From the NCBI GenBank assembly GCA_027624135.1, contig JAQBXL010000008.1, forward strand, positions 1 to 52,443: a DNA stretch of 52,443 nucleotides, written 5' to 3'. This document shows positions 48,827 through 52,443 of this stretch, piece after piece; the first letter of the stretch is position 1, and the number at the start of each line of letters is the position of its first letter. The notes beneath the pieces were generated by a model that saw only the letters and a list, made by a program, of their open reading frames with translations, was not told where the DNA came from and ran no database searches. This DNA comes from Chloroflexota bacterium (GTDB lineage Bacteria > Chloroflexota > Dehalococcoidia > Lucifugimonadales > UBA3495). A program made the translations under genes and the position numbers.

Positions 48827-49227
48827 GGGGTCGGAGTTGCGTCTGTTAAATATGATGCTTTTTTCCTTGTTATCTCACTGCAGTAATCTTGATTTTACAC
48901 CTTCGCCGATTTTTTAGTATTCGAGAACTCTTCTTTCCCAGCTCTCTGGGAGCATCCAGGGGTCACTCAGGACCAGCGGCGAGACTTGGTCAGGGAAGTA
49001 TTGGATGGAATCTGGCTTCGTTATGGCAAGCTCGTTGCTGTGAAACCGGGGTCGGAGTACGCCCCTTGATTCGCGTACAATATCTGGAGTGAAAACCACC
49101 AAGTCGGTGACGACCGCTCATCCTGACAAAGGTTACGCAAATTACCCTTTGCGGTTCACTCTGACCAGGACTTTGGTTAAGCGTCCGAAGTCGAGAGTCT
49201 CCTCGGATATACCCGGCGATGGGGCAA

Positions 49228-50017: not shown

Positions 50018-50266
50018 ATGGCAATTTGGTGCAAATGCGTTGCCTACTGGCTTTTTCCCACTGGCTTTGACACGGCAGTCCCGCCAGCTATTGTGGAAGA
50101 GGTGGGTAAGAAGAAGAAGCAGCCACCGCCGATGCCGACGGTCGTCCTGATCCCCCATTCTAAAGCGGACGGGGACCGGCGGTTGAAGAAGGCCTTTGAC
50201 TTGATTCTCCACGCGACCAAGAGCCCAGCAGATCCGCAAGAGCCGAACGAATCTCAAGAGGAGTAG
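50018..50266 (+). CDS. Hypothetical small protein upstream of ATPase (true start may be internal)
   Basis: 82-aa ORF in the same frame as the downstream ATPase, ending TAG 3 nt before its ATG. Internal start MPTVVLIPHSKADGDRRLKKAFDLILHATKS... plausible. Confidence 0.4.
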   Translation: MAIWCKCVAYWLFPTGFDTAVPPAIVEEVGKKKKQPPPMPTVVLIPHSKADGDRRLKKAFDLILHATKSPADPQEPNESQEE

Positions 50267-50269
50267 GGG

Positions 50270-51190
50270 ATGATGGAAAAAGGCAGAAATTCCCGCATAC
50301 GCCGTGCGACCATAAACCCTTCAGACGACGGATTAGCCGTCGAGGACCGGGTGCTCCGAAAAAAGCAGGAGGAGACACCGGAGGACGAGGAGGCGATGGA
50401 GTTGTTATCGCATCCCGATCTCCTGAATCGCTTCCTCGCTTTTGGGTACGAGGCTGGGCACGTTGGCGAGGAGGAGAACCGCCAGGCACTTTATGTGATC
50501 CTGACGGGACGAAAGGTGCTGAATTACCGCATGCACGCCGGTGTTATCGGAGAATCCGGTGCAGGGAAGTCCGAGTTGTGCCGATTCGTGCTCTCAACCA
50601 TGCCGCAGCAGGAGGTCCTTTACCTTGGAGGAGGCGTCAGCAAGAAGGCCCTCCAATTCCAAAAAGATCTCACTGGCCGGCTCATATTCATCGATGAGGC
50701 CAACAAGCTGGACGACGACACTTGGGCTTTGCTCCGGGAGGCGATGACCAAACCAGAAGTCCAGCGAATGGTGACGGAGCGGACCGAGTCCGGGATTTAC
50801 GGGGCACGAACCTACGTCGCTCAATGCGACCGGCTGGTACTAGTCCAGGCTGCTTCTCGTCCCATCGTGGATCCAGCCAACGAGACCCGGTTTTTCCTCC
50901 TGCACCCGGACACCTCTCCCGAGCAGACTGAGGCTATCTTAGACGTCCAGGCTATGAGGGCGGAGGGCCGTCCGCCCTCCTCCCTCAAAGCCGATCTGGG
51001 GGTTTGGAGGCGTGCGCAGGAGCTTCTAAGGCCGTGCCACGTGGAGATACCTTATGCGACTGGTCTCAGGCAGTTGTTTACTTCAAACGCAATCCGAGCC
51101 AGGAGGGACTTCGACCGTGTTCTTGCCCTGGTTGCCGCAACGGCCTGTCTCCACCAGTACCAGAGGCCCACCGAGAGTGAGGATGATTAA
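50270..51190 (+). CDS. P-loop ATPase, N-terminal portion of an interrupted ORF
   Basis: 306 aa; Walker A GESGAGKSELC, Walker B-like RLIFIDEANKLDDDTW, SD gaggag before ATG; ends TAA 51188-51190. Confidence 0.8.
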   Translation: MMEKGRNSRIRRATINPSDDGLAVEDRVLRKKQEETPEDEEAMELLSHPDLLNRFLAFGYEAGHVGEEENRQALYVILTGRKVLNYRMHAGVIGESGAGKSELCRFVLSTMPQQEVLYLGGGVSKKALQFQKDLTGRLIFIDEANKLDDDTWALLREAMTKPEVQRMVTERTESGIYGARTYVAQCDRLVLVQAASRPIVDPANETRFFLLHPDTSPEQTEAILDVQAMRAEGRPPSSLKADLGVWRRAQELLRPCHVEIPYATGLRQLFTSNAIRARRDFDRVLALVAATACLHQYQRPTESEDD

Positions 51191-51571
51191 CTCGTCATCA
51201 AAGCGGAAATCCGGGACTACGAACTTGCGTACCGCTTTGCCGGGCCGATCTTCTACAGATCAACGGCAAGTCTTACCCCGACGCAGAAGAAGGTCTTGGA
51301 AAGGATGATTGGGAAGAGGCCGAAGTTGGGAGCCAGATTCAAGACGCATGAGGTCAAGGAGTGGATGGGCAAGACGTACACGACCGTGAAGGAGCACCTG
51401 GACAACCTGAGGGACCTGGGAATCCTTGAAGAAGGGCAAAACAAAGACGGGAAGTTTTACAAGCGAGTCTCCGATCAACCTCGGGGCGCCGACCTTCCTT
51501 CTCCTGCGGAGTTACGGAAAAGCATGGAACCTGAGATAAATGACTCCGAGGGCGGCACGGAGGTGGTGTAG
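51191..51571 (+). pseudogene. In-frame C-terminal continuation of the ATPase after TAA (winged-helix-like)
   Basis: Same frame as 50270..51190 (both frame 2): LVIKAEIRDYELAYRFAGPIFYRSTASLTPTQKKVLERMIGKRPKLGARFKTHEVKEWMGKTYTTVKEHLDNLRDLGILEEGQ...; no other stop before 51571. The track shows only the TTG-initiated part (51296). Confidence 0.7.
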
Positions 51572-51573
51572 CC

Positions 51574-51939
51574 ATGGACGCTGAGCAACTCGTGGACAGG
51601 CTCCGTCGCCAAGGGGTGGCAATCAGCATACGCGACGGTGAATTGAGGCTGGTGCCGGGATCCCTTGTACCAGGCCACTTGGTGAAGCAGGTGCGGGAGA
51701 ACAAGTCAGACATCTACCGCTACCTTCAGGTCAATCCGCCATCCACCATGGGTACTGACGCTACAACCGAAGGCTGCTGGCCACTGGAGCTCTGGCGGCG
51801 TCTGAGTCGTCCAGAGTGGCGCCAGTATCTGAGGCAGAGCATAGAAAACCAAGACAAAGAGCGGGAGGAGCACGCCCGCTGGATGTTGCGGGAGATATTA
51901 CCCCGCATTTCCCATATGGCTCAAAAGCTCTCTCAGTAA
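51574..51939 (+). CDS. Small protein with TubC_N-like docking domain
   Basis: 121 aa; MDAEQLVDRLRRQGVAISIRDGELRLVPGSLVPGHLVKQVRENKSDIYRYLQ resembles the TubC N-terminal docking fold. Starts 2 nt after the upstream stop. Confidence 0.6.
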   Translation: MDAEQLVDRLRRQGVAISIRDGELRLVPGSLVPGHLVKQVRENKSDIYRYLQVNPPSTMGTDATTEGCWPLELWRRLSRPEWRQYLRQSIENQDKEREEHARWMLREILPRISHMAQKLSQ

Positions 51940-52004
51940 TTCGTCTATGTTCTTTCAACCGTTGTCTAATTATAGGCCAGGTTGCGTTTGGACAGCTAGA
52001 ATAA

Positions 52005-52052
52005 CTCCATGATTTGGCCTCATTGCAGTAAGATACCGTAATAATCATGGAG
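52005..52052 (+). promoter_or_regulatory. 10-bp inverted repeat overlapping the transposase Shine-Dalgarno
   Basis: CTCCATGATT (52005-52014) / AATCATGGAG (52043-52052), 28-nt loop; GGAGG SD at 52049-52053, ATG at 52060. Confidence 0.7.
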
Positions 52053-52059
52053 GCACCCA

Positions 52060-52443
52060 ATGGGTGACGGCGAAAATGCCTCTCTCCGGCTTCAATTCAA
52101 CCCAAAAGTCCGCCTGGAATTCCACGGTTCCACCATCACCTCAGATGCTGGTCTTCTTGCATTTCGAGAGTTTGATGATGCCTTGGGCCTTACCGAAATC
52201 GCTGAGGACTACCTCCAGGAAAGCCGTACCGGACGCAATATCCTACACCACCTGGTCCCGCTGCTAAGACAGTCGATCTACAGCCGCCTGGCTGGCTACG
52301 ATGATACCAATGACGCAGTGCGCCTTTCCCAAGACCCAGCCATGCGAGTGATCGTGGGTTGGCTGGGCTCGGAGCGCAAGGCTGCCAGCACCAGCGAGAT
52401 GGGCCGGTTTGAGACCGAGTTGCTGACCCAAGAGAACAACCGG
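52060..52443 (+). CDS. IS1380-family transposase, N-terminal part (truncated by window edge)
   Basis: MGDGENASLRLQFNPKVRLEFHGSTITSDAGLLAFREFDDALGLTEIAEDYLQESRTGRNILHHLVPLLRQSIYSRLAGYDDTNDAVRLSQDPAMRVIVGWLGSERKAASTSEMGRFETELLTQENNR; open to the end, so absent from the ORF track. Confidence 0.9.
   Translation, partial: MGDGENASLRLQFNPKVRLEFHGSTITSDAGLLAFREFDDALGLTEIAEDYLQESRTGRNILHHLVPLLRQSIYSRLAGYDDTNDAVRLSQDPAMRVIVGWLGSERKAASTSEMGRFETELLTQENNR

Follow-up and report, generated by a model that had tools for sequence, protein, structure and literature searches.

Two open reading frames near the end of a Chloroflexota contig, at 50270..51190 and 51296..51571 of the forward strand, lie in the same frame, raising the question of whether they are two genes or a single gene that has been interrupted. 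The window, meaning the whole stretch of DNA analysed here (52,443 nucleotides), is an entire contig of a 2.98-Mb draft genome in 213 contigs (87% complete, 4% contaminated), with position 52443 as the contig end.

One reading frame, one stop codon

The first frame (50270..51190, ATG at 50270) encodes a P-loop ATPase of 306 residues with the Walker A motif GESGAGKS. As the earlier note had claimed, the TAA at 51188-51190 is the sole stop between this ATG and the TAG at 51569-51571. Beyond it the frame continues for 126 further sense codons (51191..51571), comprising a linker, a conserved helix with the residues DY and a winged helix. The mechanically called second frame begins at a TTG (51296), and the next in-frame ATG is at 51305. 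The gap of two nucleotides to the following gene was also borne out, the TAG ending at 51571 and the next ATG lying at 51574.

The chance of 126 open codons is about 0.01 at the local GC content of 57%, so that openness after the stop is only moderately surprising alone; it is homology that establishes the shared frame. Codon usage after the stop scored 0.15 in the same frame vs -0.47 and -0.29 in the other forward frames. The 35-codon linker before the TTG behaved likewise (0.095 vs -0.48 and -0.15), and GC3 was 71% after the stop vs 68% in the ATPase. No further frame damage was seen in the ATPase. A frame open straight through its stop could also mean that readthrough of the TAA yields some full-length protein. 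We regard this as highly improbable: UAA is as a rule read through less than the other bacterial stops, the stop is absent in relatives, leaving no conserved context to be demonstrated, and a frame scan of the window gave no sign of TAA reassignment.

Directly upstream, on the same strand and in the ATPase frame, is an 82-residue frame of unknown function (50018..50266), whose TAG (50264-50266) lies one codon ahead of the ATG at 50270. It is not a primase and searches gave no homologue; perhaps it is part of the same element as the ATPase. A minus-strand frame of 259 residues gave no useful matches.

Homologues cross the stop as single proteins

Homologues were collected from 399 genomes of the phylum by protein search, from 393 of the class and 197 of the order by profile search, from one locus of a genome collection and from plasmids. 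The alignment holds 22 distinct full-length homologues (from the same phylum, a Planctomycetota MAG and two plasmids), the closest relative found having about 33% identity. In all 22, a single unbroken frame of 402-994 residues encodes both ATPase and winged helix, and six partial homologues spanning the TAA position are likewise open there. The alignment test proposed in the earlier note thus returned a single protein across the TAA, in agreement with its reading of a P-loop ATPase and its own winged helix in one ancestral frame. We also looked among the homologues for proteins ending near SEDD with a separate winged helix-turn-helix gene, and found none.

Both halves of the window protein were recognised by a profile of 13 homologues from which the window had been left out. 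The part before the stop scored 170 bits (profile positions 2-262), the part after it, on its own, 23 bits with an E value of 5.5e-6 (positions 268-381), and the read-through product 202 bits. Residues G99, K100, E143, R207, R279, D280 and R299 are invariant in 14 sequences, and the window's ATPase keeps the Walker A motif and the conserved arginines. Around the stop the window reads ...LHQYQRPTESEDD-stop-LVIKAEIRDYELAYRF..., vs ...LHQxQRExDxxGRIVATLxDYAxVRxL... in relatives. Alignment and structure model together place the TAA after the final ATPase helix, in a variable loop. The conserved DY helix, through which the chain passes into the winged helix, and the winged helix itself are both 3' of the stop. 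In 20 of the 22 relatives the alignment has a gap at this position. Because the loop varies in length, the residue replaced by the TAA cannot be named.

A working division of the protein would be tolerated at such a variable domain boundary, with ATPase and winged helix as two subunits and the second translated from the TTG at 51296, from the ATG at 51305 or by ribosomes that reinitiate past the TAA. A purine-rich AGAAGAAGG ahead of both codons and the lack of decay 3' of the stop would fit this arrangement, which is nonetheless improbable, as none of the 28 homologues crossing the position is split. The codon composition of the linker is also still of coding type, which an untranslated spacer need not long keep. 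The structure adds to this. An AlphaFold run on a two-sequence alignment (mean pLDDT 41, confident only in the winged helix) gave a winged helix at residues ~334-403, in the order H-H-H-E-E, with pLDDT of about 80-86. Its predicted helix 1 spans residues 337-349, the TTG being residue 343 and the ATG residue 346. The suspicion that the TTG is not a native start therefore held, as it falls inside this helix; a protein begun at either codon would be predicted to start partway through helix 1 and to lack the conserved DY helix. The more specific proposal that a winged helix made separately by internal initiation regulates the ATPase's DNA binding, or that this binding is lost, is more doubtful still.

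No detectable decay after the stop

The leave-one-out score per residue of the post-stop part, relative to the ATPase, is 0.56 in the window. The same ratio spans 0.43-0.57 in the nearest subgroup (L003 0.47, L019 0.57, L020 0.44, L021 0.56, L042 0.43). Compared with the closest homologues, the post-stop part thus appears to have no detectable decay, which would mean that the interruption is recent, that it is not real or that the part is still in use.

Under the second of these options, the TAA would stem from a faulty consensus or assembly, or from a minority strain variant, and the real gene would be intact. An undecayed tail is what this predicts, and the assembly is fragmented, the contig ending in a multi-copy IS1380 element about 1.2 kb past the stop. 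If the genome was assembled from short reads, a consensus error at a single base would be a rare event. The ATPase is otherwise free of frame damage, and the truncation downstream matches the junction at other IS1380 copies, both of which argue against a faulty sequence. We consider an error unlikely, yet not negligible, because resequencing in Mycobacterium smegmatis traced 28 of the 73 interrupted coding sequences examined to sequencing errors (PMC1852416).

A primase-ATPase family of plasmids and integrated elements

Many homologues bear an N-terminal CHC2 zinc finger and/or a Toprim primase. Of the four full-length proteins searched with Pfam, all had CHC2 and/or Toprim, L057 only weakly; the 5'-truncated L023 had neither. 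Plasmid relatives are annotated as "DNA primase", "toprim domain-containing protein" or "CHC2 zinc finger domain-containing protein". Judged by domain content and alignment, the family is that of CHC2/Toprim primase-ATPase-winged-helix proteins of plasmids and integrated elements, and the window protein appears to be a relative of its ATPase half, not a full member. The window frame begins about 40 residues ahead of the profile start, and a tblastn search for primase coding within the window gave nothing convincing (best E about 0.09). Against solved structures, the profile matched only generic P-loops and MarR-type winged helices.

Because primases are fused in relatives and some of these are on plasmids, the ancestral product was most likely an element-encoded replication ATPase, which the winged helix would have aimed at DNA. 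A phage origin was considered and rejected: tblastn against 50,697 phage records gave no match, and those to PHROGs were only weak. No relative was found in viral contigs.

Second copies, and copies that look damaged, occur elsewhere in the family. An 11-kb Lonsdalea plasmid carries, near the full primase-ATPase copy, another that is truncated (L020:411-2447); an annotated endonuclease/immunity pair lies a short way downstream of it. L018 and L043/L053 look damaged. The former, near-identical to L007 of the same genome (G394:C2 and G394:C4, respectively), contains frameshifts and an in-frame TGA, and L043/L053 match in two frames.

A truncated partner gene in a strain-specific island

The gene that follows the ATPase frame (51574..51939, forward strand) is a small TubC_N-like partner, whose TubC_N match is just below the Pfam cut-off. 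A related gene lies 3' of the ATPase gene in L057 (L057:4631-4993), L054 (L054:9913-10317) and L072 (L072:896-1183), and weakly in L011. Most TubC_N-like partners share a conserved tail, WRR.S.P.WR....SI...D..RE.YARWMLRE.L. The same WRR...ARWML tail also ends a different, primase-like protein of 722-734 residues (L063 and L065, from single-contig genomes of the same class); possibly it is a docking module of replication proteins. A literature search with limited terms returned nothing on TubC_N with primases, and nothing on CHC2/Toprim primase-helicases in integrative elements.

Homology of the window's partner ends at residue 109 (~51900), and from about 51901 onwards eight further loci of this genome resemble the window. 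This position is the left end of an IS1380-family element (51901..52443, forward strand), which replaces the 3' end of the partner gene; hence this gene is without its natural end. The transposase frame starts at 52060 and is cut by the contig end. The genome contains about 20 partial matches to the element, and because many of them sit at contig ends, it accounts for part of the assembly fragmentation.

None of the same-genus genomes searched gave a match to the ATPase, and near 48886 the window loses synteny with a genome of this genus. Near the edge of this strain-specific island, a stretch of about 190 bp (48936-49126) is repeated at another place in this genome (C194:8441-8632, 77%) and in two same-genus genomes. 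No tRNA or Rfam RNA was found at the island edge. We read the locus as a probable strain-specific, damaged mobile element, its mobility being suggested by the plasmid and recombinase-linked contexts of the family.

A probable recent interruption and its known counterparts

Based on these findings, we postulate that the two frames are probably a single ancestral mobile-element gene, recently interrupted by a nonsense mutation in the interdomain loop. The ancestral gene would have joined an AAA-type P-loop ATPase to a C-terminal winged helix, corresponding to the ATPase-winged-helix half of CHC2/Toprim proteins. A recent nonsense mutation would then have struck the loop between the two domains, leaving the cell to make a 306-residue ATPase without its DNA-binding tail. 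We infer that the stop is real and recent and that the truncated product does not work.

Uninterrupted relatives, homology after the stop and coding-type codons there support the nonsense reading, and the normal post-stop score for the subgroup suggests that the event was recent. That the element is decaying is suggested by the IS1380-cut partner, the absence from the same genus, the synteny break, the missing primase and the other damaged copies. The nonsense reading is weakened by the retained Walker A motif and arginines and by the undecayed tail, which an error or a working split would match, and by the position of the stop in a domain-boundary loop, where a split is tolerable.

Rather than a new mechanism, the case most likely represents a copy that is broken, or mis-assembled, in an ordinary way. 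Its importance alone is small, being one interrupted gene in one draft genome with an ordinary explanation, but for annotation it means that the two "genes" here are one. The pairing of primase-ATPase-winged-helix proteins with TubC_N-like proteins, which recurs in elements of this phylum, is worthier of study than the stop.

Interrupted coding sequences of bacterial genomes (PMC1852416, PMC2277376) are close counterparts, having likewise one in-frame stop in a conserved frame with intact homologues; the present case differs in being known from the assembled sequence alone. Within the CHC2/Toprim family, proteins such as those of Lonsdalea populi (NZ_CP072857.1) and of Leptospira plasmids align end to end over the ATPase region and winged helix at ~23-33% identity. 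The window differs from the family in having no primase half and in the stop that separates the ATPase from the winged helix. A TubC_N-like small gene comes next in several relatives from this phylum, as it does in the window, where, unlike in those relatives, it is cut by IS1380.
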